A stretch of 64,000 bases of DNA, taken from assembly GCA_019055375.1 (NCBI GenBank), contig JAHQIW010007394.1:27679-91678 (forward strand), in the 5' to 3' direction. The first letter of the stretch is position 1, and the number at the start of each line of letters is the position of its first letter. The stretch comes from Parelaphostrongylus tenuis (Eukaryota; Nematoda; Chromadorea; Rhabditida; Metastrongylidae). Of the stretch, positions 9,051 through 60,530 are shown piece after piece. Position numbers and translations under genes: made by a program. The notes under the pieces were generated by a model, which saw nothing but the letters and a program-made list of their open reading frames with translations, was not told where the DNA came from and ran no database searches.

Positions 9051-9059
9051 GGATGTTTT

Positions 9060-9815: not shown

Positions 9816-9829
9816 AGATTAAGGCCAAA

Positions 9830-21669: not shown

Positions 21670-22045
21670 ATATACCCAATAATGTGGAGTGCTGTGCAAG
21701 AACATTTGCGTCGGCCGGGATTTGCACCCAGATCTCACTCTTTCCGAGAGCATATGCTAACCGTTGCACCACCGACGCTCGTTTTGCACAGCACTCTTCT
21801 TACGCTATAAGGCATTAGCTGTCAACAGCCAACCGTTCCAACCAACAAGTGGGTTGAATACCAACAGCGGCTGCCCCGCGAGACCGTCGACGGTTGGCTG
21901 TTGATAGGTAACGCTTTGTAGCGTAAAAAGAGCGCTGTGCAAAACGAGCGCCGGTGGTGCAACGGTTCGCATACGCTCCCGGAAAGAGTGAGATCTGGGT
22001 TCGAATCCCGGTTGACGCAAATGTTTTTGCACAGCACCCCACATT
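21670..22045. mobile_element. Fold-back element with two divergent tRNA-like arms (family B)
   Basis: The arms are near-perfect reverse complements. The left arm carries a minus-strand and the right arm a plus-strand tRNA-like sequence. The right arm reads GGTGGTGCAACGGTTCGCAT (A-box-like) at about 21953 and GGGTTCGAATCCCGG (an exact B box) at about 22000. Between the boxes lies TCCCGGAAAGAGTG, longer than a normal anticodon arm. Flanking TGTTTTTGCACAGCACCCC is mirrored as GGAGTGCTGTGCAAGAACAT. It has internal pol III boxes but no evidence of decoding function. Confidence 0.75.
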
Positions 22046-22705
22046 ATTGAGTCATTCGATAGTTCAAATCTCGAGAATTCCGATACTAGAATTTACTTTG
22101 AAAATATTGACAAAAAGTGCCGTGAAAGAGGAAACAAGATTGCGTTTTGTACGCGGAATAGTTAACTCATCGCTTGAATATCAAAAGTGTTCATTTGGCA
22201 ATGTCAAACAAATGAAGTTTGTAACTATAAAACGATAGAACAAAGTCTCTTCTACCATGACAGGCAAGAAACTTGAGAATTTTTCTGTAACGGGGAAAAA
22301 ATTTCCAAATAAATAATGAGCATTGCGCGCCTCTCGAATGACGCTGAGCGCAGCGATTCCGACTACCGCCTCAAAAGGGCGCGTCATTCTAGAAGCGTGT
22401 GATTTTCGTTATCTATTCGAAAGTTTTTTCTTCATTGCAGAAAATTTTTCTGGCGTTTTTATCAGAATTGAAAGACTTTGTTCTAACGTTCTACAAATGC
22501 AAACGTTAATTTTTTGTTCCAAATTTCCAAGGAAATTCGCTATGAGATTCAAGCGGCGTGCTAACTACTTCAAGTGCGAAACGTGATCTTGTGTTCGTTT
22601 TTACAGCGCTCTATGTGAATTTTATCGAAAAATTACCTTTATTGTGAAAATTTCCGAAATCTGAGTTGTCGTGAGCTTTTGAATAACTCCCAGAATTTTA
22701 TGAAA
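22045..22705. mobile_element. Fold-back element, family F, copy 2
   Basis: It begins TCATTCGATAGTTCAAATCT directly at the end of the tRNA-like palindrome and ends with an inverted match at GAGCTTTTGAATAACTCC. The internal blocks TTTGGCAATGTC, GGGGAAAAAATTTCCAAAT and CTCTCGAATGA match copy 1. Confidence 0.65.
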
Positions 22706-30400: not shown

Positions 30401-33400
30401 GGGACGACAGGTGATACAGGTGAAGAATGGTAACCCGGAGTTGCCAATAGGTGGATCGAATTTGGTCCTCAGAGTCCTGAATGGCATTTCTCCCACTAAC
30501 CTATCGGGTCTTCGATGAAAAGTTTATACCTTGAATATTTCTTCAAACAAAAAACCAATGAAATTCCTTTTTTCTTCAGACTATAGAATCATGTAACATT
30601 TCACTGAAATATTTTGTATTCTTAGTAAAAATGCAAGCGTTTCTTATCCTAGTATTTTCCTCGAAACTCTACTCATGCCTTCAACGAATCGAAGCTGCGT
30701 CCGTACCATTCGTTAGCCGAAATGAGAGACCAACTCACGAAGGTATGTTAGTCAATCGATTTTTATCATATATCTCTTTGGTTTTCGTAACTCAAAAACC
30801 TGTAAAAAATATGCAATATTCAGTTTTAAATAAATGTAGGTTGTAATGGATGACTACTCAGTGAATCGTTTCGATGATTGGCCAGCGTTCGACTATCTTG
30901 GCGAGTGAGCTCTATAACTCTTTCAAACACACTTTTTTTACAGAATTTATTTACTAATAGCTGTAACATGCAGTGTTGTTACATGGGACGAGCTTTGGAA
31001 TGGAACTCCTAATAGCGCTCAACATTTGGCAGTAGTGTTTGAGAATCATCAAGCCAGCCTTACAGGTGCTCAGGTGAGTTAATTTTTTTCTGAGGGTGCA
31101 AGTGTTAGTTAACCCACTGACGAAGGAGCAAAAATTTTACCTCTCACAGACTTTTTAAGTTCTTTTTTCACATTACACAAAAAATCTCCCTTTTTTGACT
31201 TTTGCGGAGCAGGCCGCCAGGGATCGTCGGCGTCGCAAGCAGATGACTGCCGTCGCCCCCATAATGCAAAATTGTGGCGAGAAACATCGCAGGCAAGGTT
31301 CCCACGCTGGACGCCCAGCTGACCTAGGGCCCTGTTGTGTTGTGGGATCACGTCATGAACTTTCATCTTTCATCAAGAAGTGGTGCGATCACCTTTCCCG
31401 TCGTTGTCGTCGTCGTCGTTGCTGTTGCTGTCGTTGTCGCCGCTGCCGAATGCGCCGTCACCTCTGCATCTGCGGTAGCACGAGATTATTTAATTAATCA
31501 ATAAATTAGAGAATTGAGTGGTGAGCTAAAATACGATCTCAGGCGGGAATCGAACCCACGTTTCATCCTATCCGGATGACGCGTGCTCTAACCACTGCAC
31601 CACCGAGGCACATTTGCCCGACCACTCATTTTTCAACATCTCTATGCTACGGCAAATAGCTGTCAGCCTAACGGGATTTATAAAGCGAATTCGCATATCC
31701 GACCAAACCTGTTAAAGGTGGCTGATAGCTAACATAGAGATGTTGAAGAATGAGTGGTCGGGCAAATGTGACTCTGTGGTGTAGTGGTTAGAGCACGCGT
31801 CCCCGATAGGATGAAACGCGGGTTCGATTCCCGCCTGAGGCCGTGTTTTTGCTCACCACTTAATTTTCTAATTTATATAAGTAACATCATAACATTGCGA
31901 AATAAGCAGTAGAAATACTATAATTTCAATAAATTAGGTAATTACGAACTGCTCAAATATTATTTCGTGTATTTCTCAAGACCAAACTCAAATTTTAATA
32001 TCCGTGATAGTTATTTTTTAAACCATGCCTGTGGTCTGTTATGAGCTCTTATACCTTGCGATATACGTACTTAAGCCTCGATAGCCTCAACAGTTGCACA
32101 GTGCCTTTCGTCTTAGTCAATCCTCTTGAGAGGAATCCAACCCCCTTACATATGGGAGACACAAACGTACTATCTAACTTTATACACTCTATTGCTCTTG
32201 GCTGATATTAGAAACATCATACCGTTGGTTTCGAGTGTTTTCTTTTGACCACGCTCAAATTGAAATTTGAAGGCATGTTGAAAGTTGAACGTGGTCTTGA
32301 AAAACAGTCGAGAAAAAATGATTTGATACTTTATAAGTCTATAACACTGCCCATTCAGAGTGATCTCTTTTACCTGATGGCACGGGTAAATACTTCGTCT
32401 GTAACTCCTTTGTGTAAGGGGCTTGGGTTCACCCGAGAGCGATTGGTTAAAACAAAGGCACTGTGCAACTGACGAAGATGTCAAGACCGAAACACAAATA
32501 CTGTATAAGTGCCCATAAGAGACCACATGCATGTCAAAAAATAATTATTAGGCATGTTAACATATTGATTCGAAAGGCCGATTTTCACTAAGCCTTGGCA
32601 TGTAAGATCAGGAATGAAAAATGAAAAATATCTCAAAAAATCGATATTCATCAAAAGATTTGCCAGAAGTTCATATATCTTCTTCAAATTCGTTAAGTGA
32701 CGTTTCGATAACTTCGCTTTCCATGAAAGCGTTCTGATAGGTTTGAGACTAGGCCTTCAAAAAGATATAACAACCTCGCGCAGCCTTTGAATGAAGATCG
32801 GTTGCTGTAGCATTTCTTGTATTTATATATTAGTGTTGTTTTGTTATGTTAAAACATGGGCCTCATTCCCCTAACCCCGAAAGAGCCCCTGGTACGGCAG
32901 CGCTAGGTAGGACGAGTACGGAAAGGCTGCTAAGATCTCACGATCCAACTAGGCTGCTAAAATCAAAACGGACTGAAATAACAACCTGTACCTACAATGC
33001 AAGAACACTTGCTCACGAATCCGCTATAGAGGATCTATTGATTCAAGCAAGGAGGATAAGCTATGACGTCATTGGTCTAGCTGAGGCGAGAAGACGCCAT
33101 CTTTTCGTGCAGTTTATGACACTGGATAAAAACTGTTTTTTGGGAACATGTGATAGCAGAGGTGTTGGCAGCGCTGGCGTCCTCGACAAATCAAATTTGA
33201 TCGTGAACATTAATTCATTTGAACAACTAACAACCGTATCGGACGATTACGGTTGAAACGATTTGGTTCAATGCCGGCTTTGATCATCTTCGTTGCTTAC
33301 GCCACCAACATCAAGCTGTGAAGAAGACGAAGTCAAAGCGTTTTATATGGACCTCGAAAAATTCTTTAGAAAAGACCATACCTTCTTTAAGATCATTGTT

Positions 33401-36400: not shown

Positions 36401-39400
36401 AATACTGCAACATAAACACCCATCATCAACTCCTGTTCTTCTGCTGATCCTTCAAATGACTCCATCCGTCACTGAAGTCTTCGTCACTATCTCCCATCAC
36501 GCTGAACACTACGCTCTTCGTGTTTGAGAGATATGAGGAGTACCAAAATTCTCTTTCCGACTCATCGTAAACTAGTCAGATCACTGGATAAGTTGATCTT
36601 GCCGCAGTTTCCTCGATATTTCGTGAAATCTGTCGGTGACGGCTTCTGTCCAAAGTTTGTCGTTAGGATTCACCATATGTCCTGCGTACCAGGTCCTTCA
36701 CATCTCTTGCGTGTTCTACTAAATTTTTGACTTCCGGTTGTCGACAAAGTCGAAACTGGATTTCTAATCTTGCTTTCTCGTATACTCCTAGCCTCAGTTT
36801 CTCGGCAACAATTTCACGACACAACGCTTTATCATTGAAAAGTCTTTACAGATATAAAATTCACAATATGTGCATCTTACCACTGCAATCTCGTTTTGTG
36901 TTTAACATGTGTGTGCAGTGTGTGTCTTTCAACATCAATATGTACTCTTCTTTTATTTTGAGAGTTCCAGCTACTACTTGACTTGCACAAGCAACGAAAT
37001 CGCCTCCTTGTGCGACGATGCCTGAAGAATCATCCATTAGCAGACGCGCTTCATCTTACCGATTTTCCCTCGTTGGTCATTTTCAAACGAGGAGAAAAAA
37101 AGCCAGTTATCGTGTCTGAGTAAGAAATTGTGTCATTTCATTGTGGTTTGATTTCCGGTCGTTAATATCGCTCTAGCATGTCCTTCTCTATTCAAAACTG
37201 ATGGCTTAACACTGAGACCTCATTTTGTAAAGGTCACTTTGGAATATTTCTTAACATGTCTAGCATGATTTTATCTTGTTAACGGTCTTCAACTCCTAAC
37301 TCTAAGCAAAAAAATATTAACGGATATTCAGTGTGAGAGATCAATCTGTCCGAGATTTCCCCCTCAAAATATTTCTTTACAGAATTTCTAGTTTTTTTCC
37401 GATTTTTACTCCAATTTACTCTGATCGGAATCTTAGGCTTCGTCGATTACTTTTATCGGAGCTGAAGAATTTCATGAATGAAACGGCCCACTCGTCAATG
37501 CAGTCAGTTCAGTTCCATAGTCGTAGGAACCGAACAAATCCCTGTGATGCGGATCCTGAAAAGTAAGTGTTGGCGCTGCAAATTGATTAGAGCGTCGAAT
37601 AGGGTTACTGTTTTCGTCTACTCATCCAGTTGTGTTAGAGTTAAGCGCGTTAAGTTCTGTTACCCGCAGTCATTCATCAATTAACCATTGATGATATGCA
37701 ATTTTCAGGTGTCGTGATATGTTTTATGCTTCCGAGGTGGATATGCTAAAGGCGATGCGGTACGCTTTGTATCGTGAAAGCTCAAGAACAGGTGGTCCGT
37801 TGACTGGAGCGAACCTAACGGCACTTCATTCGTTCGTTAGCCTCCTCGCTGATCATTTTCCCATGTCGACGACATACGGAAACAATGTCAGTGATCCTTA
37901 AGCAAGCACGAGAAGTCCTGATCTCAAGCCAGTGTGATCGCATAGTGATCATTTATATTATGATTTAACTGTTTTTTGTATTTTCTGCAGACAGTCCTTG
38001 AACAGTCAATGCGAGCTGTCAAAGTCTTTGCCCGTTTGCGAGAGTTTATTGAGAATCGTGGTTTGGACAGCTCAATAACCACTGATGATTGGCAGAAGGA
38101 GTTTGTTGCGGCTGAGGTAATTCAACGAACATTTTCTAATTGTGTCTGCTCGTTCCAGTTTTCAAACAAATAGGCTGGTACTAATGTTTGAAAACTGCCA
38201 AACTCACCAAAAAAGAGTAGGTGCGGCCACTAAAACGTAGTAAAAGACCTGGATAGACTAACTCTACAATAGAAAATGTTTTGCAAATTGCCCTTTCTCA
38301 TAAATAAAACGCTTGAGATTGGTACTTTTCCTTCGAATCCGGCATCTAACCCGCTAACTTCTTGCAATTTCACCTTGATCAGAGCGTAAATAACGTACTA
38401 CTCAAAACCGTTAATTATCCTGTCATATTTTCTATACTTAATGAAAATCTAATCAAGAATCCAATATAAATGCCTACCTATTAACAAGTAAGACCTCGTT
38501 GTTCAGCTGCTTGTGCGGGAAAAGTCACCGACGTGTTGTTACAGCCTGTGAAGAAAAGAATTTACCCAGTCTAGCAAACCAATTTGAAATAAGATGCCAT
38601 TTTATTCACCGTATTCTTTGATGAGCAAGAGCAAGAATGTTATTCGTAGATTTATCAGAATAACTCAAGATATCCATTTTGATTTGCAAGTCCATTAGGT
38701 TAAAAGCTAAAAGAATCTTACGCTAACAATTTGAAGTTTTATTAGACAATTTGCACAAATCAGAAAAAAACTTAATTACCGTTAACGAAAGCTCTAAAAG
38801 TCGAGGTAGAATCGATAATGTTTCAGATAAATCAAGGGTCATCGTATGGGAAGCATGACTAACCCTTCGAGTGCGCACTCGCCATTGAAATTGGGCTAAG
38901 TTTCTCACTAACAAAGCCCATTTCTGACGAAATCTTGCATAGGGCGCACGTAGTTTGTATGAGCTTCAAGTTCGACTCCGTTACCAAGCTAAACTTCAAT
39001 CAGAATTTAGCCATGAACAAATTAGCAACATCTCGTTTTCTTCAAGCGTTCTCTAGATAGCAAGACCCTAACGGCGATGTAGATATGACCTTCCGCATTT
39101 TTTTGGCTGAAACTCGCAGAATTCTCAACCATCACCGCTGACAATTGGTTTCCCTCACAGAAGCGCAAAAATGATGCGACAGGTTCGAGGACTGATAAAA
39201 TCAAAATCGAATAGGCCATTAGTTAGGAATTGTAGAAATTGTCTTTGACACATTATGTCGTCATCTGGCTCGGAACCACTTCTACGACTGCCTGTGTGAA
39301 ATAAGGGACTGCATGATATGTCCTAATGGTTAAGAGCGGGACTGCATGAATTTAGGTATGATAAACCTGAGCTCTTGCAATACATGGGATGACGAATTCA

Positions 39401-41608
39401 TGGGCGAAACGAGCAGATCAATTTGTGTCCGCATAAAAAAACCTAAATGGGAAGTAAAAGTCGTAAAGGTACTTTGAGGTGGTAGCGAGAATCTTGAGGC
39501 ACCGAGTCAAAAGCTTCGACGTGGAGAACAAATCCACTACTGAACATGAAGGGAGAGTGTCTAGGCATAACAAATGATGTAACACCTTCTCTCAAAATAG
39601 TTTTCTATCTTACGTGAGACTCATTTTCCATAGCGTAGAAGAGCACACCAGTGATACGACAATTAACAATCGGGTAGGCGTCATTGTCTATTTGAATCTA
39701 TTTACTTTGATACGCATGCAATCTGCAAAATACAGTTCGCTATAGGGAGGAGTTGGAACTCTCCAACGAATGCTAAGAAATGTGGTCGTCGATTTGATTA
39801 TCTACAAGATGACACAGTAATTGAGATGAGATCCCAAGAATTTCTGTGTGCTCTGGAGAACTGTATTAGTGGAAAGATTGCCAATATCGTCCAACAATCT
39901 ATATAGGCGGTACTCACAAGTAAATCTTTGGACACCTTTCGCAAAGACAAATAGGATGCGTTATGATTTTAGGGATATGTTGAGAGCACAAAACAAGGAA
40001 CTTTCATACTTCCTGACTTATCGAATGAACAAGACTGACTTTAAGTCAAGAACGATCTTTGTTTAGCAAATAAATATTTGGTGTACTGCTTCAGCGATTG
40101 GAATCAAAAATACTTCGAAATGAACTTTCCTGACATGAATTCAAGTTCACAGCAAAAATTGCGAAATATTAATCTTTACATAGAGCTAGAGCTTTACAAC
40201 ACAAATCTTTTATGCGTCAGCATGTTCGCCCTTCTAATTAGTTGTGAACTTTGTTTTTTGGATTTTTTAAAGTGGTCACCTGGTCAAATCATTTCGTTAC
40301 ATGGAGTGGTGGCCTTAGTGATACAAAATCTCAAGAAGGCATTTGTGGAGCGGTTTCGGAATCCTTTGATAAGTATTTGTAGATAGTAGACAATATGACC
40401 TGGTACGTCATTCGCGCTTGAAAATGGTATAATAGAAAGTGCTCATGTCATATATCGCATGACTTTTTCGTTTCGGTTGGTGATGATTAATTCATAGTTC
40501 ATGGGCATATTCTAGATCATAGTACGAATGACACGTTGATCGAAATTGCTACAGAATGATAGCGCATTACTAGAAGGAAACTGAATAGACACCATCTCCC
40601 CTCCTTGTAAGACGGCTGCCCCTTGCGTGAATCGTGTTACTAGGAAATTCTCTTGCCTGTTACTGTTTCCTTTTTCATTTCATCCTCAAAAGTCTATAAA
40701 AAAGAAAAGTCATAGGCGGAGGGATATAAAAAGTTTTCGAGTACGACCTCTAAGTGAGGTGAACACAGTTTCAAATTATATTACCTGTCTTAGGAAGCAG
40801 CCGGTAGACCATTTGCTGTGAATTCCGATTGGGAACACTGCCGCGGATCAACTGGTCAATATCGTGGCTACACCTGTGCCCTGTGGGTAGCATTCCACGC
40901 CATCACTGTTTCCGCATATAAGCAGAATAGAGAACACTGTAAGTTCAGCATGCAGCGAAGTTTTTTTTATCCAAAATTCAACCATTCTACCCATGATGAC
41001 GATAATATTTTTCAACAACAAAGATGCTTCATTGATTATTCCAATTCTAGGCGACAACGAACTCCACAAACTTTTTTTTCAGTAGCCGATTTCAAACCTA
41101 GTGAACCATTGAAGGCAATTCGTGCATGGATAGTATCCTTCTTTGGCTGCCTGCATTGCCGTGAACACTTCCTGAAAATGACTGCAAACACATTCCCGAT
41201 TGAGACACAGGTGCAGTGAAAAAAGAGTTCCAAAAGTTTTCTTGAGCATAACGGCAATGGTAACTCAAAAAGCTAATTTTTCAATAATAGAGGATGTGAA
41301 ATGGGAGCGGAGAGGAACTTGTTTTATAGTACAGAACAGTTTTGTCTGCTTTTAAACAATGCTTTCAGGTTCGCAATGCTGATGAGGTCTTCATGTATTT
41401 ATGGCGAGTCCATAATATAGTGAATGCACGTCTACAAGGCCGTGATACAGAAGACCCACTCTATCCAAAACTTCAATTTCCGGCCAAATTTCTTTGTCAG
41501 AATTGCACAGTAAACGGTTCTCTAGTTGAAGAAGAAGTCCGAGATTTTCTACTTGACTACTATAGCAGAATTAAGCCATTCCAAACGCCTAGATTTCTTC
41601 TATTTTGA
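27429..41608 (+). CDS. qsox: Quiescin sulfhydryl oxidase (QSOX), complete, 12 exons
   Basis: QSOX makes disulfides in secreted proteins: a thioredoxin domain takes electrons from client thiols and passes them to an FAD-binding Erv/ALR domain that reduces oxygen to peroxide, in the secretory pathway or outside the cell. Coding exons: 27429-27614, 28824-28997, 30653-30742, 30840-30904, 30974-31073, 36971-37119, 37437-37562, 37709-37886, 37991-38116, 40794-40938, 41083-41210, 41369-41608. All have GT/AG borders and all phases agree, giving 568 residues, a usual QSOX length. A signal peptide is at residues 1-17 (LHLLLTFLPW). The first CxxC is WCGHC at 67-71. A second thioredoxin-fold stretch reads DFPSLVIFKRGEKKP (236-250). 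The Erv domain reads WEHCRGS (411-417), RGYTCALW (422-429), the active CxxC FGCLHCREHF (467-476) and LWRVHNIVNARL (500-511). The third CxxC is CQNC at 532-535. There is no C-terminal membrane helix, unlike many animal QSOX forms, so it should be soluble. Introns 2 and 5 are swollen by RTE and fold-back elements. Confidence 0.94.
27700..28222. mobile_element. Family C fold-back element with tRNA-like ends, in QSOX intron 1
   Basis: The plus-strand tRNA-like head at 27707 (GCGTGTGGGCGAAGTGGTTG, then GGTTCGAAC) and the minus-strand head ending near 28218 face each other. The bodies are inverted matches: AATATGCATTCAATCAC at 27884 versus GTGATTGAATGCATATC near 27998. The arms meet at about 27950. 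Confidence 0.7.
28223..28820. other. Rest of QSOX intron 1
   Basis: AT-rich, with nothing recognised. The acceptor TTCTTTCAG at 28815-28823 closes it. Confidence 0.6.
29285..30475 (+). mobile_element. RTE retrotransposon fragment (RT to 3' end) in QSOX intron 2
   Basis: The RT landmarks are SLCLIF-like PLCLIFINLKKPLDSV near 29340-29400, then the catalytic region HLRFADDIAFITPNISQAER at 29648-29705 with the FADD box intact. NRWKRAAWGTFKSIED and the C-terminal TDWIPR follow near 30270. A break at about 29546 splits the frame and stops occur after 30040, so it is a pseudogene. It lies in the same orientation as the host gene. Confidence 0.85.
31190..31470. repeat. GC-rich patch with (GTC/GTT)n trinucleotides, QSOX intron 5
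   Basis: The first part is unusually GC-rich for the window. It is followed by CGTCGTCGTCGTTGCTGTTG-type repeats at about 31400-31440. It yields Arg/Cys-rich frames that are not believable proteins. Confidence 0.55.
31515..31880. mobile_element. Fold-back element with divergent tRNA-like arms in QSOX intron 5
   Basis: The arms are reverse complements from GAGTGGTGAGC to GCTCACCAC. The left arm carries a minus-strand and the right arm (31770-31842) a plus-strand tRNA-like sequence: GTGGTGTAGTGGTTAGAGCAC (D arm), then a GCG/CGC stem around CCCCGATAGGATGAA, then GCGGGTTCGATTCCCGC (a perfect T arm), then an acceptor-like CCTGAGGC. The anticodon arm has an oversized loop, so decoding is unlikely. 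The pol III boxes look intact. Confidence 0.75.
31965..32560. mobile_element. Family A fold-back element with decayed hammerhead motifs, QSOX intron 5
   Basis: The left arm at about 32040-32150 (CAACAGTTGCACAGTGCCTT) and right arm at 32440-32510 (AAGGCACTGTGCAACTGACG) are inverted matches. The plus-strand right arm keeps CTGACGA at 32469 and GAAA at 32489, but stem II and stem III no longer pair. The left arm core is more degraded. Flanks with CTCAAATTTTAATAT and GGTTTCGAGTGTTTTCTT are shared with the copy at 44.9 kb. Confidence 0.6.
32846..35690 (+). mobile_element. RTE retrotransposon, longest copy of the second subfamily, QSOX intron 5
   Basis: It runs from the endonuclease start (TCTYNARTLAHESAIEDLL, then YDVIGLAEARRR near 33060) through an endonuclease motif, IIVGDFKEKIG at 33395-33425. 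The linker ESVIPPVFPSEIRHA follows at 34240, then the RT motif LCLTFIDLRKAF at about 34685. The catalytic region at 34975-35040 is HLCVVDDTVPITPSISQAER, where FADD has become VVDD. The 3' end carries RWAGHVMS and TDWIPR. Many stops and frameshifts are present, so it is dead. Confidence 0.85.
36100..36355 (-). repeat. Family C repeat with tRNA-like head, QSOX intron 5
   Basis: The minus-strand start GCGTGTGGCGCAGTGGTTG matches the A-box head of the 27.7-kb element. The body retains GTTTGAGGTAATCGAATGCA, but the B box is degraded. Confidence 0.55.
38117..40793. other. QSOX intron 9
   Basis: It is 2.7 kb of AT-rich sequence without a recognised gene. Open frames such as 39848-40066 and 40078-40386 (+) have no domains. 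The acceptor CTGTCTTAG closes it. Confidence 0.6.
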
Positions 41609-42003: not shown

Positions 42004-42419
42004 AACCCCTAGGAGAAGACTATACGCACACGTATGCATCTATTTATTAATTTCACATCACCTGTCACACAGCTATGTGGATCGTGGCACTCCTATCACA
42101 CGACTCGTTTTCTCCTATTTATTGTCCTCAAAACTCTACTGACATTTCACATAATGTTCCAGCTGCTGCTTGGAGATTTCGTCCACTTTATGAATGTCGT
42201 AGAAAGCTAATATAGTGCATTCTCTTTGCGGTCGTGTAGATACCTGTGCTAAGGCTTCTCATGTAGAATCTAACGGAGCGATGGACGAGGGTCAAAGCAG
42301 CACTTTGTTTTCAGGTGAGGGACATCATTAAGCACTCTGCTATCCCAGTTTATAAACATGTAAGTATCTAACCTTATATGCGAATATTTTTGAGACCTCG
42401 CTTACAATAAGTACGTCCT

Positions 42420-42680
42420 GTTAAGATATTCTGAGCCTCTTATAAAGTCTATTATGACACACTGCAATGCACGTGTTTCGGCCTTACATCTCGTCAGTTG
42501 CACAACGCCCTTCGTCTGTGCCAACCCCTCTCGGGGTGAGAATCCGCTTATATAGAGAAATCGTCGACGAGTACGTCACACTGTCTGTAAAGCGAATATT
42601 CACTTCACCCACGGGTAACATATCACTGCATGTCCAACGACATGATCACTGGATACTGCAATGATTAGCACTCGATTCTT
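42420..42680. mobile_element. Family A element with decayed minus-strand hammerhead
   Basis: The arm ATTCTGAGCCTCTTATAAAG and ATTATGACACACTGCAATGC matches 55650-55695. The minus-strand core at 42462-42503 keeps CTGACGA, GAAA and stem I (GTGCAA with TTGCAG, five of six pairs), but the cleavage triplet reads GCA and stem II is weak. Confidence 0.6.
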
Positions 42681-44894: not shown

Positions 44895-45235
44895 AATTGC
44901 TCGATGGTTCGCTTAGATCTTTCGTTTCGAGTGTTTTCTTAAGACCACAGCTCAAATTTTCAATATGCCAAAAAATCACTTTTGAGCCACGCATGTCATG
45001 CGTCTGTCAAAAAATGGCTGACTTATAGAGCCCAATACACGTGTTTCGACCTTGACGGTCTCGTCAATCGGGCAGTTACACTTTTTCGTTTTTTGTCAAT
45101 CCTATGGGGGGTGCTCCAATACCCACACTAAGAGTTAGCGACGGCGAACATTTTACACTCTATGTCCAGTGAAATTATCACTGAACATAGAGTGTCTATA
45201 CTCGATTGCTCATGGTTAGTATAGTTAATATGTCA
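44895..45235. mobile_element. Family A element carrying a near-intact hammerhead
   Basis: It shares CGTTTCGAGTGTTTTCTTAA and CTCAAATTTTCAATATG with the flanks of the 32.0-32.5 kb copy. The ribozyme motif lies on the minus strand at 45030-45073, listed separately. Confidence 0.6.
45030..45073 (-). ncRNA. Hammerhead ribozyme motif, one core substitution
   Basis: Minus strand, in order: stem I GCCCGA with TTGGGC (six pairs including one G-U), core TTGACGA (expected CTGANGA, so C3 is U), stem II GACC/GGTC with a five-base loop, GAAA, stem III A-U and C-G around a four-base loop, and cleavage triplet GTA. All core positions fit except C3. Changes at C3 usually cripple cleavage, so it is probably inactive. 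Confidence 0.65.
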
Positions 45236-48370: not shown

Positions 48371-48477
48371 TACCTTCCAAGTAACCTCCGAGGCCTACAA
48401 ATCAACACCAGACTTGCCTCGAAGGATAAACTCTACTTTGATTACGCATTTCTTGTTGATTAAGTAAAACACGAAGT

Positions 48478-49295
48478 TGATGAAAATCATCTATTCGGCT
48501 GACATTTCGAGGCGTTTCGTCTTCTTCACAGCCGCTTGATCCGAGCCGATGCTCCACGGTCGTTCGTCCTAATTGCGGTGTCCACCTTCTTTGTCTTTCG
48601 AGTCGGATCTTTTTAGGGGGAGCCACCCTCAAAGGAGAACTTTAGTCTGGGGTGATCCTTTCATTCGGGATAGTTCTTGATGATAATGATTGTCCGCTCA
48701 TAATATACTGTTTTCGGTGAACAATTCATCCTATAGGTCTGTATAATCAAAGTTGATGAACTTATTATTCGGCTGACGTTTCGACGCGTTTCGTCTTTTT
48801 TTAAAGCGAAGACCAAAACGAGGAGGAGCGACTGTAGAGCATCAACTCGGATCAGTCAGCTCTGAAGGTGTTATTGAACTGTATTGAAAAAAATAAATGA
48901 AAGTCAGTTTTTTCAAATTGATATAACGCTGAGTGCAAGCGAATAGTAATGTTGACTAGTGCAAGGTGGAGTGTTAATTGAAAACCAAAATATCATCAGC
49001 GGGCATTCATTGTCATGTCATATTGTTTTGAACGAGGTTTCAAAAAACCGCCGAAAAGAAAAGAAAGGCATTCATCATTATGAAGAAACGTTCCACATAA
49101 AGAAAGCATTGCAGAGTGAAACTCTCATTTAAACGATGCTCCTCCGAAGAAGATCCGACTCGAACAAAATGAAGGTGTAAACCATAAAAAGGACGAACGA
49201 CTGTAGATATCGCCTTGGATCAGTCGGCTCTGAAGGGGACACGTCGAGACGTTGGCCGAATAGAAAATTGTTTTTTATAAACTTTGGGTTATGCT
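48478..49295. mobile_element. Family E element with hammerhead-like arms, nested copies
   Basis: Left arm 48478-48660 (minus-strand motif at 48496-48534) and right arm 49090-49295 (plus-strand motif at 49225-49259) are inverted matches: GATCCGAGCCGATGCTCCAC against ATCGCCTTGGATCAGTCGGC, and CGAGTCGGATCTTTTT against GATCCGACTCG. A third minus-strand motif lies at 48770-48805. Each has CGGCT/AGCCG (stem I) flanking GAC...GTC (stem II), GAAA or GAGA, and a GTC or GTT cleavage-like triplet. Confidence 0.55.
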
Positions 49296-49299
49296 CAAT

Positions 49300-49804
49300 C
49301 AACAAGGAATATTTGATGAATCTATATTACCGAAATCAAAGGGGAGTAGATTTTTCAATCTTCTATCTTGATTTATTGGTAAAATAAAGTCATCGTATGA
49401 ACAAGATATGTGTGTTAAATTACTTCTATTACTACTGAATCGGGTGGATGGCACATCCTTCGAGAGATGATCACCACCAATTACTTTGTCCTTTTATTTT
49501 TTATTCTTTCAAAGGTAACTGTTACAATGGAAAATCTGTTGATGCGTGTAAATGTGATGCTTATCTTTGTAGCACTCGCTGAAAGAATTTGAGTGATCAT
49601 TCTGCTTTTTCAGTCATTTGCTTAGTTGCTTCACTAGTGCACTAATTTTATTAAGAAATATGAACGGCGACATTAGGTGGAAAATTTGAGAATCTCTTCA
49701 CATTCTTCTTAATCATTGGCGTGTTTCTATGATAACAATTGACCAGAGGAATATGTATCAATTTTTCCACTTTTACTTAAGAACGTATTGAGGAGTTGAC
49801 GTGA
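49300..49804. other. Region upstream of AMPK gamma
   Basis: AT-rich. TTTTACTTAAG at about 49771-49781 could be a splice acceptor. An in-frame TGA directly precedes the ATG. Confidence 0.4.
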
Positions 49805-52800
49805 ATGTTGGAAACGACAAAGCCATTGAATGTCTATAGTAACAACGAAAGTGGTTATGATTCTCCAAACGTAAGTGGAGAGTCGTCTCGTCGAAGCTCG
49901 ATCGGTTTTAAGGAATACGTGAAGAGTCGCCGGTTCACAATGAGTAACAAAGTAAGACAGTCTTCGCAGAACCTAAAGAAATTTACGCGACTATTCCTAG
50001 TTTGTTGTGTCATGTTATGAACGAGTAAAAAAACCGGTTTTCATAAAAACACACCCCACATGATGAATGTGAAATTAACGCATTGTTTTTTATCACTGTA
50101 TTTTGAATCTGTTCCAGTCAAATCGTGTGACGGTGCCTATACCATTGGCTTCGGATGCTTCCAGAAAGACAAGCAGCACAGATTCGAATTCCTGCGTTGT
50201 TTTCGATGAAGCAGATGATGAAGTGTTGTTACAAAGACCAGTATACCAACGGCGTATGAGTGTTCCAGAGAAAGTCTTTCTTAGCGCTGTGAGTTATTCA
50301 TCTTCTAAGGATTCAACAGAAACTTTGTTGTCTTTGTGTTAATAGATTTCACTAAAATACAGTTATCTACTAATTTCTTAGGACTATGCGATATTACGTC
50401 CATCTATGGAAGCTGATGTCAAATTTGAGATAGTAGCCGCATTTGGTGAGTGTGTCTGAGTGTGATAATTTATAACTTCCACTTTTAAAATATGGATTGT
50501 GAATAGGAAATAAAAGTATCTGAAAGATTTTAGCTCTGAAAACCACACTTATTCATCTGTGAAGTCCTTAAATCGTTTAGAAGTTATTCGTACAAGTGTT
50601 CGTCATTTTTCACAACAGTATACTTTTTGCGACATATAACGAATGAGTCTATGAGTCCTCTTCGGCAGCGTATAAGGAAGTATTGATAAGCATTTCTACT
50701 ATCAGCACTGCTAGAACTATATGGAAAATTATCATTTATGTTACAGATCGTTATACCGATCCGTATCGTCATTACATGCAATCGCTGACGTGCTACGATC
50801 TTCAACCTATTCACAGTGCTGTAGTTGTTATCGACGGAGAACTCAAGGTGAATGTTAACTAGATCGAAAAATTATCTGAGCAATTGTGCATAGGTTATAA
50901 GATCACCTTCGTATCACTTGCACAACTACGTAAACCTCTCGTGTATTTTTTCATTGGAACACTCAACGTCCTTGGGTAGTTGTATAGTATTTAAACAAGC
51001 AATCAAAATTGTCAAACGTTTTTTTGAGTTTGTGTATATCTAAATTAGTATAAGAAATGTTAATATTCATAGGTAAGCATAAATAAGTATTAATTCAAAA
51101 TTTGTAGTAGGAAGTAAAATTGTATCAACTTTTTTTTCCTTCCTACCTATTTTTTTTTAAATTCACTGCTTTGTTGTTGTTAAAAAACATTTTGGGCCTA
51201 AATTTCTCATTAATGCATTGATATTCAGACATCTATCCATGTTTCTCCTTCATTCTGTGTATATTCCAGATTCATAAAGCATTGACTGCATTAAGTCAAT
51301 GTGGTCATCAGGTTGCAATCGTCTCTAATCTAGATGTCAAAGGTATCAATCCGCTTTTTGCATCTGATGATGTTTAAATGTTATCTCAGTCCACTTATTT
51401 CTTTCCAGGTGGTCTTGGAATTATCACCGTGACTGATTGCTTGAAGGCTATCGTGCTTGCATCAGAAGGTGTTCAAGAAGTTGCTGAACAGACAGTCGCA
51501 GAGTTCTTAAAGCTAAATAATCACAAGCGATTGGTAACAGCAGATGTTAACACAAGGTAGTGTTTTCAACTGCTTTTGGTCAGATAAAAGGCATCAGATG
51601 ATTTCATATGCAAAATATGCGCTGCTAAATGTTTTTGTTGAATGTTGACCACTTGAAAAATTGATCATGCATGAGAAGCTTGATCACGAATGATCTTTTT
51701 TAATTTTTAAAAATCCTCTGTCTATCTACCTGTACGAATTGCGTCATATAGTCAGTAGTGACTATCTAGTCGGTTATAGAATATGCTCAGTTACAGTGTG
51801 CCCTTAGCTCGCTCCTATATCCGTTTATAAATAACATATACCATGTTATAATTTCATACACTTTGATATACCCGTCCTTTTGTTGATTTCATTCTCCAGA
51901 ATAATCACTCGATTTGAAACAGTTCGACATATCATTGAGAAGTTAAGATTAAGATATATGGCCGAGCCAGGTCAGGTAGCAAGGGAGCATTCTCACTGGT
52001 GATAAGAGTTTGAAGAGAGGCTTCCATAAAACTCGTGATTCTTTTCGTACTCTTTGTTATTTTGTCTGAGAGAAGTCAACAAATGACCACTAACGCTAGA
52101 CAAGTGAGCAGAAAAACTACTCACTGAAATGTGTTTGTCTTAGTCGATAGTTAACAGGACAAAGATAGTGTGAGCTATTGTGAATTTTATGCGCAAAAAT
52201 CGACCATAAAAATAAACTTCAAATAAATTATAGATGTCATGTGTAAGACATCAATGCTATGGCACTGAATCGTGCCATTACTTTCCTGTTATGTCACTGT
52301 ATTCCCTCCGTGAGCTCTCATAAGATGCAGATAATGGATTAAGTGGCATGAGTACTATAGCTATTGCTCTATGTACGTTAAATAGCTTTTTTTATACTTT
52401 TTTCTGTACCTTTGTCTTAGTGGATACATTTGAGGGTCGGGAATCTTCTAACGATAGCGATTTCAAATATGCCCAGTAATGTTGAGAGATGCTCAAACCT
52501 TTGACGTCAGGCAGGACTCGAACCCGCATTTCACCCTTTCTGGGGGCGCATGCTCAACCAATTGCACTACAAACTCCTGTTTTACCACCATTCTTTCTAC
52601 GCTACAACGCGACAGCGATTTCATTTCTAGTTCCACTGTGTTAGTGATTGGGTTCGCAACGGACGTGTTCTCGCCATTGGTAACCCTTTTTATGCCATCG
52701 GGGCACAATTTTGTGATCATATTGACATTTCACGTGCTAGAACATGTTTATTGAGGTTGAGTAGGTTAGATCGTGTGGGGAGATCAGATTTGTTTATTGT

Positions 52801-52880
52801 AGTAAATTTTCGAGAAAATTGGCCTCCGTTTCAAATTGACTTAGCCGTCCGGCCAGAGTTCTTTCAAATACTGCGGACTT

Positions 52881-52914
<34 letters not shown>

Positions 52915-53180
52915 CTATATATATATATATATATTGGAGCAATGTGCAAAATGGGCGTCAGTAGTGTAACGGATAGAGCACGCATTCCCGGAAAGACGTG
53001 AGGTGCGGGTTCTAGTCCCGCCTGACGCGAATGTTTTGCACATTGCTCCACATCAGTGGGTATATATTTGGAACATCATACCACCTCTATAAGCGGTTAA
53101 ATAAAACGAATTTTATTTGATATATATATGTATAAAAATATATATACATGCATTAATATAAATAAATATAATAAATAAAT

Positions 53181-54445: not shown

Positions 54446-55640
54446 GTAATTTTTACCTCATTTTTTTAAAATATAATACATAGTTAATAACATACGGGAG
54501 AAAATTTTCGAGAAGCATATTTCTTTACTTAAATCATGTTGTTCATCTACTCTCGGGTTTTGTTGTATAAGCTGATACACAGAGAGAAAGATGTTTTGAG
54601 AAGTACGTGAATATTTAGATGTACTACTGCTATAAAACAAGGAACCTGAATGAAAGAATTGTGGAACCACAAACACTATTTGATTTTTGGTTATGGAAAA
54701 TAAGAACTTATGATCTAATGGTGGGTGATTGGTGAGGAGTTTGGCTAATCCTCTTTTTTAGTGGAATAGATCGCGCACACTTTGGTAAAGATCCATGTAA
54801 CTCATAGCATGAATGGCATGCCCTTCTTTATGACAGCGTTCTATAAACAATCCAAATCCGATTCACTTTAATTTAGATAGAACAAGTGACTTTTTTATTT
54901 TCTAACAACTCTTTGCAGACATGTTTAGGAAGTAGTTAATTGAAATAGACGAAAGTTGTAGTGTTAAGCATGCATACTAATGCATAAGAACATCAGTTGA
55001 TCACAGTAATTGTAAGAAGGTGATCTGTGCTTTTTTTGTTGGTTTTGCTCTTACAGAAAATCTTATTGAATGGTTATTTTCACCTTACTTTATGATATGC
55101 CTGACATTTTGTTTTTCTCTTAGCAACGAGCCTAATCATCTCTTGGTTTTCATATGGGCAAAAAACAATCATTGATGTTTGAAACGAGATTCTCAATCCA
55201 GTTTTGTTTCTAAAATTTAATGGAATGCATTCTCCTTTTGTAATCCCTTTGTTAAGAGAACAAATGTTTCCCATAGATGGTGCTCAATACGGTCCTTACA
55301 TAAACAGAACATATTATTCGAAACTCTTATTATACCATTGCAGTATTCTCTAGGCAGTTTGAAATATATCTTTGGATTTGCATATATCGCTATTCAAATG
55401 AAGGGAATATGGTAGTAAGTAATCATACTGGATTAAACTGGTCTAAATCACAATCTTAACTTTTATTTACCACCTCTTCTATGCATGAAAGGACACGATC
55501 TGCACTACTATCACGGGAATGCTGAGATACGAGTGAAATTTTGACCTCATCTAGAGTTGAATGGAACGCGCGATTACCCTTTCTGGGGGACGCCGCACTG
55601 TGCCAAACCTGTTGACGTTGCTGTTGATCGCTCAAACATC
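54446..55640. other. Downstream of AMPK gamma exon 8, presumably intron
   Basis: No CBS3 exon was recognised. AT-rich sequence only. Confidence 0.4.
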
Positions 55641-55647
55641 TTAGCTA

Positions 55648-55892
55648 TATTTTAAGCCTTTTATGAGGTTTATTATGACACTATATAGTGCTAGACACGT
55701 GTTTCGGCCTTTCAGCCTCATCAGTAGCACTGTGCCTTTGGTTCAGTTAGTTCCTTGTGATTCCAAGTATATCCGCTTACAAATAACTGACTGAACCGAA
55801 AAGCACCGTGTTATTGATGAGAGCCGAAACACGTGTCTAGCACTGTAATAAGTGCCATAACAGGCCTCACGAAAGGCTTAAAATAGTGGCTT
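55648..55892. mobile_element. Family A palindromic element with hammerhead ribozyme
   Basis: The arms pair from TTTTAAGCCTTTTATGAGG to CCTCACGAAAGGCTTAAAA, through GTGCTAGACACGTGTTTCGG and CCGAAACACGTGTCTAGCAC, to a central hairpin (TTTGGTTCAGTTAG with CTGACTGAACCGAAA). The whole 245-base unit can fold into one long hairpin. No protein is encoded. The left arm holds an intact minus-strand hammerhead. The right arm holds a decayed plus-strand one (TTGATGA, truncated stem II). Confidence 0.8.
55687..55731 (-). ncRNA. Type I hammerhead ribozyme, all core bases conserved
   Basis: Minus strand 5' to 3': stem I AGTGCTA, core CTGATGA, stem II GGCT-GAAA-GGCC (three Watson-Crick pairs and one U-G, closed by a GNRA loop), GAAA, stem III A-U and C-G around ACGT, cleavage triplet GTC (55696-55694), then TAGCACT, which pairs perfectly with the start. 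Every invariant hammerhead residue is present. The very short stem III (palindromic CACGTG) resembles the ribozymes of Penelope-like elements and retrozymes, which work best as dimers. Self-cleavage is predicted, not shown. Confidence 0.85.
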
Positions 55893-55929
55893 TGTTTCTT
55901 GATCGTGGGTAATTGTAGATTTGAGGTTG

Positions 55930-56920
55930 GGGTGGTGGATGGGAATGCGGTGGTGGTTTGTACGTGGCAGAAAGAGGGTTTTTTTTGAATGGTGGATTGC
56001 GTGTACTAAGTGGGGAGGGAGGATGGGATTTTAGATTAAGTATGAGAGGAATTTATGTTGGGGCTTAGAGGTAGTGTGACTGTGTATGTCGGAGTTGGAT
56101 GGAGGGAAAGCATGATGTTTGTGATCCTAGGGCATTTGGACAGTCGGGGGCTATTGATGGGGTGGTGGAGAGTGGGCGACTTTTTGGGGCCGGGGGGGTG
56201 GTGTAGTTCCTATGGGTATCAACTGAGCGCCTGAGTAGCATTGGGCGTGGTGTGGTCGGCAGGTCGGAGTGATTAGGTTTGGGGGACACTTTGAGAGTGA
56301 GACGTGTTTATAATCTGAGTGGGATGCGGGGAGATGAGTGGTTAGTTGTGCTAGTGGAGAATTGTGTATGGGGTAGGTGGTTTTGGATAAAGGGGATTGG
56401 GCGGTTTTAGGGTGAGTATGGGGGGGAAATGGGTGGTTATGAAGTGTAAGGTGTTATAGAAAAGAAGAGGGGTTGGGGTGGGGACTGGGTTATGGGGACG
56501 ATTAGTTGGGTTGTATTTAGGAGTCTATGCGATTTTGAGATATGGACGGGTGAGTGGGTAGTTCTGGTGGATGGTGGAGGGGATCGGTATGGGAGGTATA
56601 GATGGAGTTTGGTGTTGTCGTAGGGCACGATCAGTAAGTCTGTGGTAAGTGGGAGTGGGTTGTGGTTGATAGGGGTGATGCTGTGGGTTGTGTTTGGAGT
56701 AAGGGAGTGGTTATGTTAGTCGAAAGGGATAGCTTGAGGGGTGGTTGAGTTTGTAGTTGCATTTTGTTGGGTGTCAAGGTTTGATTTTGTAGTTGTGGGG
56801 TGTGTGATGGTGTTTAGATTGTTGGCGCTTAGGACTAGGTGTTTAAAGATGGTCTTTATTGATGTTGCCTCTATGTGAGAGGTTGTGTGGGTGGTGGGGT
56901 CTTAGTTTGTTGTTGTATTA
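55930..56920. other. G/T-rich strand-asymmetric block, first part
   Basis: The + strand is dominated by G and T with few C (GGTGGTGGATGGGAATGCGG-like text). Minus-strand open frames rich in Pro/Thr/Ser arise from composition. No gene is supportable. Confidence 0.7.
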
Positions 56921-56988
56921 ATGCATTGCTTTTTTTTTGTGATTTTTTGCTCTCTGGTGCTCCTTTTCTTTATTAGATTTGCTTTCCC

Positions 56989-57160
56989 TTGCAGACCTTC
57001 AGTCGCCTCCTGCAGCACTCCCCTCTTTTTGTCCCTCTCCTCTCTTCTTTTCTCCCTCTCTCCTCTCGTCCTTCCGATCCCCCTCTTCTGCTCCTTCTTC
57101 CTTCCTCCCTCTCCCCCTCTTCTCCTCTCCTCTCTCGCTTCCTTCCTTTTCTCCTTCCCG
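56989..57160. repeat. Polypyrimidine/polypurine tract
   Basis: Almost pure C/T on the + strand for about 170 bases (CTCCCTCTCTCCTCTCG type). Confidence 0.85.
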
Positions 57161-59944
57161 TTATTGTTTTCACTATGTTCCCTTTTTTTTTGTTGCCCGA
57201 TGTTAAGGTTGTCACATTAAGTTAGCGGGTGTGTTGAGTGGCTAATGTTGGCTGTGAATGGGTAGAGATTGACTGTTTCTTTTTGATTCAGTGGTTCCTG
57301 TCCATGCGGGGAATGTTTGGAGTCGTTTTGGTGTTCGTCCGCTTTGGGAACACAGATGCTTGTGCGTGGTGATCAATTTGTTTGGGGTGGGTGGCTGGCT
57401 GGTGTTCTGGTGTTTGGTTGTGTTTGGGTTTCATGGGGGTGTGGTTTTGTGTTGTGTACGTTCATGATTCTGTGTGTGTTCTTGCATATTATGTCTTCTG
57501 CACAGCTTTTGCGTTTTTTTTGAGGTGTAGGCTATTCTATTAGCACATTGTGTGTTATTGGGTGTTGTCGCGCGTGTTTTTGGTGTGATTTTGTGTTTTT
57601 TGGCATGGCTAGTTGACACTTCATGTTGTATGGGGTCTGTCCTGGGTGTTTTGATTTTAATTTTGCACTTTTGTTTGTGTTCATGGTTATTTGGTGTTTT
57701 AGTGTTGTCCTATTTTGGTTATTGTTGTTGGTTTTGGTTTTATCACTTGTGTCATTGTTCTTTTTCTTGTGTGGGTCGTGGTGCCACTTTGATGGAGGAT
57801 TTTATTGTTTCTTGGGCTTTCTTTTGGGCCGTTCTGGTTCGCACTTTTTTTGTTCTTTTGGTTTATGTGGCTTTTGTGGTTAGAGGTTGTTTTGTTTTGT
57901 TGTTTGTTCTGGGTCTTTATTTTTTGTTGTTCTGTGGGTTCTTGGACTTTTTGTCTTTGCTGCGTTGTACATGCCTATGTATTAGTTCTCAGTTTCTCTG
58001 AACATTTTGGGTTTGGGTTAGTCGGTTGAGTGTGTGCCCTTTGATTGTGCTATCGGCTTTTGCTGCTATTATTTTCTTGTGTCTTCTAAGTTTGGCATTT
58101 ATGTCTGACTGGAATTTTTCTGATTCTGCTTTTTGTTTGTTGTTTTTCAATTTATTTTTATGTTTTTGCGTTTTGTGTCGTTGTACCTGGTTTTTATTTG
58201 CCTGGTTGTGGGAAGATTTGTACGGCTGGTTGCGTGTGGTGGTTGGCTCTGTCTTCGGGGTTTCCACCACTCTTCTTCTTTTGTTTTTTCTTTTTTTATT
58301 GGCTTCATTAGCTTATCTTATTTTTTTTTTTTCTTGTTTTTTGTTTTTTTTCCTTAGTTATTTATTGTGTATGTGGTTCTCTTATTCATGGATTTAAGGT
58401 TCGTCTTTGCTCTGATATATTTATGTTTGTATTGCTTTTTTTCTCCTTTGTACCTTTTTTCCTCCTGTCTAGTCCCCTTTTTCATTTGTATTTCTGTCTT
58501 CCCCGTCTTCTTCTGTGTTCTTCTTTCTGAGTTTCATCTCACTTTTCCCCGTATCCTTCGTCCCCCCCCCTTTATGTTCTGGCACGACCAGTCCTTTTCT
58601 ATTATGTCCTATCGTAAGTAGTTATCTGATTTCAACATCGACTGCCTATCTAGTCACTTCTGCGTTTGCCATGTGGTTAACCTTTTTTTTTGCCTATACT
58701 TTTTGTTTATCGCATGGGGGTGTGGCTCACGGCAATGCTCCTTTAGTTCCTTGTGTGTTCTCGTTGTTTCTTTATGTTACTTTTTGATGATGTCTTACGG
58801 TCTTCCTGCTTGGTTGTCAGGTTCAGTTTGTTTATCTCTTTGGGTTTAATCACATTGAGGTCTTAGTGTTCTGTTGTTTGTCTTTGTTATCGTTTCTGTC
58901 TTATGTTTTTCTTGTTCTTGATTTTTTTTTCTTCCTTTTTTTTTCCTTTATTACATTTTTTTTTTTTTTTAGATCGCAGTTTGTCTTGGTGTTTCCTATT
59001 TGCCTCTTTATCTTCGTTTCGTAACTTGGATGTTTTCTTTTTTATTTGATACTTCTCTCTATATCGTATCGTGTTCCGTTTTTGTTTTTTGTTTTCTTTC
59101 TTTGGCTTATCTGGTTCTTGCTTGGTTGTTTTTCTCCTTTGCTTATCAGCCTATAGGTTCTATTGTGGCACTTTCTTGTCTTTTTCTCTGTATTTGGTTG
59201 TATTCTTGCTGCTTCAGTCTTGTTTTTCATTGTTCCGTTTTTGTTATGAGGTGGCGTTTGTCGTTTCTTTGTCTTTTCTGTGTAGTTGCTTCATTATGTT
59301 TTTTTTGTTTGTTTTTCTTGACTCCTCGCCCCCCCCCCTCTTACTTTTCCTGTATTTTTTGCCATGGGCTTTTTTGGTCTGTTCTGTTTTGGCGGCGTCT
59401 CCTTTTTGTTTGGCTTTCGGAGGGTGTTCTCTACAGGTCTCCCAAATGGTTGTGTGGTTGTTTCTTTTTATTTTTGTCTTCTATTTAAATGCACTTTATG
59501 TTTCTCAGAGCCGCGTTTGTATTTTAATCTTTTGTCACTTCTTTGTTCTGTTTTTGTTCTATTTGTTCTTTTTTACTCTTTCTTTTGTTTTTGGTGCATT
59601 TTTATACGGTAGTTGTCATTTTTTCACTTCCTTTGGTGTTTGGCTCTTTTTCATTGGTTTTTATTTTCGTTTCTCTGTTTATTTTACGTAGTTTGCGGAA
59701 TTTACTGTTTTCGTCTTATTTCTTTGCTGTCCTATGACATTCTTTTACTTACTGTTGCTCCTTCCGCGCGACTATTCTCTTCTTAACTTTTTTTACTTTA
59801 TTATATATCTTTGTTATTTTTCATGCTGTTTTAACTTTTTTCGTTTGTAGTTCTGTGAGTGGAATCACATCCTATATTGTTTTTGATGCTTTGTACAGTT
59901 ATTATCATTTATGTTTCGTACCACTCTTCTACTGTTATGCTTAT

Positions 59945-60025
59945 ATTACTTTTCCTTCCTCCCCCCTCTTCCGCCTCTCTCCCTCTCCCCCTCCCTTTCT
60001 CCTCCCCCCTCTCCTCTCCCTCCTA
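59945..60025. repeat. Polypyrimidine/polypurine tract
   Basis: About 80 bases of nearly pure C/T, C-rich, on the + strand. Confidence 0.85.
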
Positions 60026-60530
60026 ACAAAAATTTGTAATTATATCAGTGTCTTGATGTGGGGGAACATGTTTTTTTCTTTTATGCTTCGCTGTTTTTGC
60101 TTCAGTTTCGCTTGCTTTTTCGTTCCTATATTATTCTGATAACTACCTTTTATGGCATCTTTATTTATACTCATTTCTGCTTAAATACTTTATTAACTAT
60201 TAAGGCATTCTATACTTTATCACATATTAATGATTTTGGGGTTTCGGTCATTCTTAGCTGTAATACTAATATAATGCTGTTCTGATTGTTGTGCATCGAT
60301 CTAAAATCTGTTCTTTAAACTCTTATCTATAATCGTCTGCCTACTTACTTTTGTTTGGTGTATTGGTGTTTGTCTCTTTTTTTGATGTTCGTGTCATTCT
60401 TTGTTTTATGTTTCCTTTTTTCTCCCTTAATTTTGGTCGCTTAGCCTATCCTGGCTTCTCTTATCTGCTTCCTCCCAGTCTTTTTGTCCTCCCTTCTTTC
60501 CTTTATATTTTAATCGAGGTGTCAAAATAG

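Follow-up and report, generated by a model that had tools for sequence, protein, structure and literature searches.

The window analyzed here, that is, the whole stretch of 64,000 nucleotides from the nematode Parelaphostrongylus tenuis, carries a small palindromic element with an intact-looking type I hammerhead ribozyme motif in its left arm, together with more decayed relatives and remnants of Penelope-like elements (PLEs) (table 1).

Table 1. Positions of the hammerhead family and of Penelope-like remnants in the 64,000-nt window
Feature	Position	Strand	Remarks
Whole inverted dimer (palindromic element)	55648-55885		238 bp, 73% self-complementary through the centre
Left arm	55648-55766	minus	midpoint division ours; hammerhead sense outward, toward lower coordinates
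Type I hammerhead	55687-55731	minus	every core position intact; matches family consensus over the ribozyme
Right arm	55767-55885	plus	midpoint division ours; hammerhead sense outward, toward higher coordinates
Decayed right-arm hammerhead	55801-55844	plus	C3 to T; 7-nt gap in stem II and loop
TGTTGAC, left copy of possible target-site duplication	55610-55616	plus	
Single arm, same family	42412-42566	minus	hammerhead 42461-42510 (minus); outward tail present
Single arm, second subfamily	44989-45143	minus	hammerhead 45029-45080 (minus)
Inverted pair, same family	31998-32558		decayed hammerheads 32057-32106 (minus) and 32456-32507 (plus)
Short inverted pair, same family	6753-6911		weak hammerhead 6809-6858 (minus), 16.6 bits with the family model
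Penelope-like protein remnant	38673-39605	plus	tblastn pieces from 38673, 38884, 39223 and 39498; outside the element
Penelope-like protein C-terminal remnant	10915-11163	minus	between inverted repeats 10605-10822 and 11157-11373; outside the element

In the 5' to 3' direction of the minus strand, stem I pairs 55731-55725 with 55693-55687 (7 bp) and is followed by the CTGATGA core box (55724-55718), by stem II (55717-55714 with 55709-55706, 4 bp, with a U-G closing pair and a GAAA loop) and by the GAAA core box (55705-55702). The stem III region is the palindrome CACGTG (55701-55696), U16.1 lies at 55695 and C17 at 55694, and cleavage is expected between 55694 and 55693. With the CUGANGA, GAAA and UH core and three helices open at stem I, the motif has the make-up of a type I hammerhead. 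This base-by-base reading confirmed, at the level of sequence, an earlier note on this DNA, which had correctly given the coordinates and the core positions (CTGATGA, GAAA and GTC) and had described a 7-bp stem I, a stem II with a GAAA tetraloop and a palindromic CACGTG. Its view that the motif is a type I hammerhead whose stem III is minimal, and that it lies within a short non-coding palindrome, is likewise supported.

The site stands out from the surrounding DNA. A scan for core plus stems found it alone in the window, against 0.03 sites per 64 kb in order-1 Markov sequences, and a sequence-pattern scan at up to three mismatches gave one match where 0.01 were expected. With 186 bp as input, the Rfam model RF00163 (Hammerhead_1), with which the site has all core positions and three stems in common, gives 33.7 bits, 0.3 short of the gathering cut-off of 34; the earlier note had held that a score below threshold would speak against the ribozyme, and the score falls on that side by this narrow margin. 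The site was reported neither in the Rfam gathering scan of the whole window nor in relaxed Rfam scans of 1001 bp and of positions 1-64000. The relaxed scans placed miRNA families over the hairpin, all far under their cut-offs, which we attribute to the long palindrome. A model derived from the family described below gives the site 81.9 bits (E 7.7e-20), the site being itself among the 64 sequences of the model and equal to its consensus.

The motif is not a stand-alone ribozyme. The earlier note had missed a second, decayed hammerhead on the plus strand of the right arm (24.7 bits with the Rfam model, 52.9 with the family model) and four further loci of the family in the window. The family model finds seven ribozymes in the window at E<0.03, most of the window members that it scored being themselves among its sequences. 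The hammerhead of the first single arm in table 1 has CTGACGA and GAAA, with U16.1 changed to C (48.9 bits with this model). That of the second subfamily has stem I GCCCGA/TTGGGC, stem II GACC/GGTC and a C3 to T change (48.0 bits), and those of the longer inverted pair reach 39.0 and 25.4 bits. The right arm of the short inverted pair, as judged by eye, stops at the stem I sequence.

The right copy of the heptamer TGTTGAC is present in a sister locus (L048, contig C2661) and absent from the window. A strongly strand-biased block of 4.6 kb (55886-60510), G+T rich and then T rich with C/T tracts, begins exactly at the right edge of the element, where it stands in place of about 22 bp of the sister sequence; its flanks align to contig C2661 at 96% and 94%. 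This block may be an assembly artefact beside the palindrome or a real insertion.

Several other features surround the family in the window. Pairs of tRNA-like sequences in inverted orientation occur at 21674-22052, 31501-31876 and 52467-53065 and form a separate inverted-dimer family, the first two being palindromes (379 and 376 bp, about 80% identity). More palindromes or long inverted repeats lie at 9059-9816, 10605-11373, 20794-21182, 22090-22634, 27840-28057 and 48448-49310, and the family model finds no hammerhead in these six. Exons with thioredoxin and Erv1/Alr domains, at 28770-29159 and 40794-41219, perhaps belong to one sulfhydryl-oxidase gene; between them lies a fragment of an RVT_1 reverse transcriptase (29612-30040), slightly under the cut-off.

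We searched the assembled genome (481.5 Mb in 5105 contigs) for the element and obtained at least 88 matches from the best 40 of 3772 first-look candidates, which were the ones scored. Forty stretches were fetched, one of them nested in another, leaving 39 loci that were compared together with the window. Because the intact window copy served as the query, the sample is biased toward well-kept ribozymes. A 22-nt piece of the ribozyme has 75 exact copies in the genome, and its reversed control has none. Additionally, in 32 loci fetched for their PLE genes (104.7 kb), the family model gave 10 matches at E<0.01, in 8 loci. By simple extrapolation from these two small and non-random samples, the genome would hold some tens of thousands of ribozymes in total. 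A strict pattern finds the full set of core positions in only 20 of the 86 arms, most copies thus being decayed. Of the 40 fetched loci, the 20 that were scanned at the Rfam gathering threshold gave no hammerhead. The two arms of one element are 0.51-0.95 identical, with a median of about 0.75 (22 pairs), and are mostly old. Outside this genome, the ribozyme pattern had no matches in a viral contig collection and one matching stretch in a general genome contig collection, where several were expected by chance by our own arithmetic.

The co-variation alignment comprised 64 of the 74 arms having the full ribozyme span. Ten were left out as badly decayed or off register, an omission that favours the pairing percentage (window 32055, both window E arms, L011 2099, L018 1982 and 2404, L024 2524, L031 1876, L043 1657 and L048 6179), and three others were trimmed by 8 nt at the 5' side. 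In this alignment, 89.5% of the pair cells have standard pairing, against 83.4 when shuffled, and 37 cells have double changes, against 9.5 (0 of 500 shuffles reach 37; structures slid along the alignment give 5-15). The covariation score is 0.225 against 0.119 (0 of 500), and further pair types number 22 against 16.8 (1 of 500). Less telling is the number of pairs having any double change, 7 against 4.6, which was reached in 30 of 500 shuffles. About 20 double changes are required on a tree made without the ribozyme columns, itself poorly resolved. Variants of stem I include GTGCTA/TAGCAC, GTGCAA/TTGCAC and GCCCGA/TCGGGC, those of stem II include GGCT/GGCC, GTCT/GGAC and GATC/GATC, and in one copy CGTACG replaces CACGTG in helix III. 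Since the stems co-vary across the 64 copies, the structure has probably been kept by selection.

The arms have a characteristic arrangement. Neighbouring arms no more than 600 bp apart number 37; of these, head-to-head placement is seen in 27, same-sense placement in 7 (all '--', no '++') and tail-to-tail placement in 3 (given as '-+'). The arms being mostly head to head, both hammerheads read outward. For 30 of the 86 arms there is no partner. A self-complementary match runs through the centre in 13 family loci (217-626 bp), and 28 arm pairs have spans of 164-894 bp, nested repeats being present in a few. The pairs have a variable centre and a constant outer end, which reads CTGACAGCATATTTT in most arms. 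Often one arm of a pair continues outward with a tail of about 50 bp. In the 25 of 28 pairs that have the two outer ends needed for counting tails and duplications, the tail is found on one side in 17, on both arms in 2 and on neither in 6, three of which score barely under the tail threshold. The tail-scoring sequence was derived from the same arms, and the window copy scores no tail. In a tree of arms, sister arms were found in 4 of 22 pairs, a count that does not separate repeated formation of dimers from amplification of dimers.

Direct repeats of 6-12 bp occur at the edges of some copies, for instance TGATGGAA (L017), ACTCTTATG (L026), TTTTCTTCAC (L034) and TGTTCAATAACA (L044), the last being the longest (12 bp) and among the pairs excluded from the counts. 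Repeats of at least 6 bases stand at the expected places in 14 of the 25 pairs, against 6.1 with shuffled partners (maximum 11 in 200 shuffles). At 7 bases or more there are 5 (shuffled mean 1.6, maximum 6.5), which is within reach of the shuffles, and at 8 or more there are 4 (mean 0.69, maximum 3.3), one of them an AT microsatellite. These repeats are suggestive of short target duplications of variable length in some copies.

In a sample that favoured complete copies, 77 of 88 outer ends extend past the ribozyme cut site, an indication that the RNA template of most copies was uncut there. Among the 11 that fall short, five end at model positions 53-66, the cut being at 67/68. We considered whether arms end at the cut site itself, and five ends near model 67/68 were too few to call. 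The arms that end about 15 nt or less from the predicted cut are L016 1286, L017 2629, L025 2204, L041 1064 and L063 3054. By eye, an arm of the short inverted pair of the window also ends near it. Arms that stop there could stem from a cleaved RNA template.

These arrangements bear on the proposal of the earlier note, namely a non-LTR retrozyme in which tandem hammerheads excise a unit RNA that is circularized and reverse transcribed. Like the animal retrozymes in the passages of PMC7229834 on which we draw, whose transcripts measure about 170-400 nt, the family does consist of small, non-coding and non-autonomous repeats of high copy number with a type I hammerhead. Published animal retrozymes are direct tandems, whereas the family here consists of inverted dimers. 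The read-through of most outer ends past the cut site also argues against this proposal, and so does the predicted folding of a whole-element transcript. In the 45-nt monomer, stems I and II are predicted to pair with probabilities of 0.999 and 0.997 and stem III with 0.006, which suggests weak activity of the monomer. Two points count against the motif as an intact ribozyme: the stability of the monomer fold is unremarkable (z -1.57; 13 of 200 shuffles equally good), and its most favourable fold (-12.3 kcal/mol) does not fully coincide with that of a hammerhead (-10.1). In a single-arm transcript, most stem I pairs have a predicted probability of about 0.7; in a transcript of the whole palindrome, the hammerhead stems fall to about 0 (stem I 0.0), the ribozyme being buried in the hairpin. 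According to these models, activity is more likely for one-arm transcripts or dimers.

Circular RNA production requires two same-sense hammerheads in tandem, as in retrozymes. With 27 of 37 neighbours head to head, the family is thus not a retrozyme in the published sense, and the production of circular RNA is not supported, given that same-sense neighbours make up 7 of 37 and that, by prediction, the ribozyme ends up in a hairpin when the element is transcribed in full. The arm orientation and the read-through of the cut site together rule out a circular-RNA retrozyme as first choice, and we regard this origin as highly improbable. As for dimers, newt and PLE hammerheads are described as acting better in that form (passages in PMC6155905 and PMC7761336).

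Another possibility is a transposase-mobilized DNA element (a MITE or a foldback element) that has long inverted repeats at its ends and carries the hammerhead as a passenger. Long inverted repeats and the absence of an open reading frame (ORF) would agree with this, as would the window's 12 inverted repeats of at least 60 bp (within 1.3 kb), of which just two belong to the hammerhead family. Inverted repeats, including the tRNA-like ones, are frequent in the window, and a palindrome by itself is therefore not diagnostic. Against a DNA element speak the unequal ends, with a mostly one-sided tail, the variable centre, the varying length (6-12 bp) of the possible duplications and the compensatory change in the ribozyme stems. 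The combination of equal terminal inverted repeats with a duplication of fixed length was not found in the family, and we think an origin of this kind decidedly unlikely.

Unequal ends of this type are known from PLEs. Bdelloid PLEs have inverted pseudo-LTRs, one of which may carry a tail of 31 bp, and 8-10-bp duplications (PMC3846280). In a PLE of Anolis, the protein cuts both DNA strands and both are extended, reverse transcription starts at two internal sites, and the tail is the stretch between these two sites (PMC11167929). The hammerhead family resembles such elements in its head-to-head inverted units with an optional tail on one, in possible short variable duplications, which are weak here, and in its minimal type I hammerhead slightly upstream of two 3' ends. 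The distance from the predicted cut to the A of the ATG within CTGATGA is 28 nt; in the Anolis PLE the cut falls 26 bp past the start codon, the coding frame being unsupported in our case. We had considered a coding frame from this ATG and rejected it: stops interrupt it in 44 of 71 arms (64 and 63 in the other frames), codon positions show no clear bias and the majority sequence has stops too. The family differs from PLEs in having no ORF, in a tail of about 50 bp against 30-40 bp in PLEs, and in the palindromic CACGTG, PLE hammerheads being without stem III. Cervera and de la Pena reportedly described PLEs with hammerheads in their pseudo-LTRs in 2014.

PLEs of the same layout are abundant in this genome. 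A search for GIY-YIG gave at least 150 matches, all above the cut-off, from the best 150 of 1723 candidates, which were the ones scored. Among neighbouring GIY-YIG places less than 6 kb apart, 20 of 22 are '-+', with ORFs reading outward. An 893-aa ORF with RVT_1 and GIY-YIG is present, and in one PLE copy (L080) a hammerhead-like motif without stem III lies upstream of the ORF. Out of 30 GIY-YIG loci, 27 could be oriented, and for 25 of these the pseudo-LTR that follows the ORF aligned with its L080 counterpart for more than 200 bp. The BLAST ends of this 3' pseudo-LTR fall near one point in 17 of these 25 loci, about 50 nt further in 6 and elsewhere in 2; the loci are not all independent, as L057 and L058 have a common flank. 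These two end clusters closely resemble the pair of ends seen in the hammerhead family.

We did not detect homology between six arms of the family and the 3' region of the abundant PLE (z -0.4 to 1.7), in a comparison that covered the genome's main PLE family. We accordingly rejected the idea that the motif is a pseudo-LTR of this PLE, given the lack of homology and the presence of arms near PLE genes at a density like that of the window. In the 30 GIY-YIG loci, family arms occur in 8, at about the window density, and an autonomous PLE with the family hammerhead or tail was not found. An exact 22-mer lying 4.4 kb from a GIY-YIG place (C5060) was considered and discarded, as the 3 kb retrieved there contained one family arm and gave no PLE match stronger than E 0.4. 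In locus L068, about 655 nt past the GIY-YIG motif in the sense of the ORF, a PLE and a hammerhead arm of the second subfamily meet directly, tail to tail, the PLE with its tail end and the arm with its outer end, possibly as one insertion at the edge of another. In the window, an inverted pair of about 90% identity (17145-17297 and 17513-17665) holds a PLE-type hammerhead motif, CTGAAGAAGGC...GCCGAAACGT, at 17272 on the minus strand.

The same layout would result if the copies were relics, that is, inverted pseudo-LTRs left by internal deletion of once autonomous PLEs and not mobilized as a unit without an ORF. The age of the two arms of most elements fits this. On the other hand, the form without an ORF is common to many copies. 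No ORF was found in the hammerhead family, and tblastn with two PLE proteins against the 39 element loci recovered only a 53-aa piece (L035) and a 29-aa piece (L015). In and around the window element, tblastn gave no match to PLE protein, and the pairing of reverse transcriptase with GIY-YIG is absent. The co-variation of the ribozyme across subfamilies also argues against relics, and we consider this origin unlikely. The chances given to it and to mobilization of the family overlap, because a relic would have the same architecture.

We therefore favour, as the probable explanation, a high-copy non-autonomous family with the layout of paired inverted Penelope pseudo-LTRs but no ORF, mobilized in trans by a PLE protein. 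The weakness of the duplications has lowered our confidence in it slightly. The non-autonomous repeated nature of the element and its PLE likeness, both put forward in the earlier note, are supported. The family would work like a pair of PLE ends with a type I hammerhead, and is neither a PLE, as it has no ORF, nor a retrozyme in the published sense.

Mobilization in trans from two start sites, which we infer from the comparison with known PLEs, might proceed as follows. A short RNA, made up of a 5' body, the hammerhead, some 60-70 nt after the cut site and then the tail, would be used by a Penelope-like RT/GIY-YIG protein. The protein would cut both target strands with a stagger, giving rise to a short duplication, and each 3' end of the target would act as primer for reverse transcription, which would begin at either of two adjacent internal sites. 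Tailed arms would come from one of these sites and tailless arms from the other. Both cDNAs would pass through the hammerhead to variable 5' points and then be joined head to head.

Dispersed minimal hammerheads are numerous in animal genomes, and PMC7761336, in the passages at hand, mentions thousands in metazoan non-coding DNA, some of them in PLE pseudo-LTRs, calls their role in PLEs a mystery and suggests that PLEs mobilize retrozymes. Compared with the hammerheads in those passages, the family described here comes with its surrounding element, its ends and its subfamilies. Our literature search, which covered titles, the opening parts of abstracts and passages and had most subscription papers outside its scope, met no description of an inverted, tailed hammerhead family without an ORF.

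The family may represent a SINE-like class of PLE partners, a broader proposal for which we see even chances: short non-autonomous retroelements using a Penelope-type RT/endonuclease in trans, possibly with tens of thousands of copies in one genome, with the hammerhead, kept by compensatory change, as the clearest conserved module. If this is true, the hammerhead would have an in vivo role in PLE-type mobilization, although the ribozyme of the Anolis PLE is dispensable for insertion in vitro and active only with the protein (PMC11167929). The many diverged copies, with co-varying stems and ends like two RT start points, offer a natural data set on the purpose of the ribozyme, and the minimal hammerheads dispersed in animal genomes could be the ends of elements mobilized in trans.
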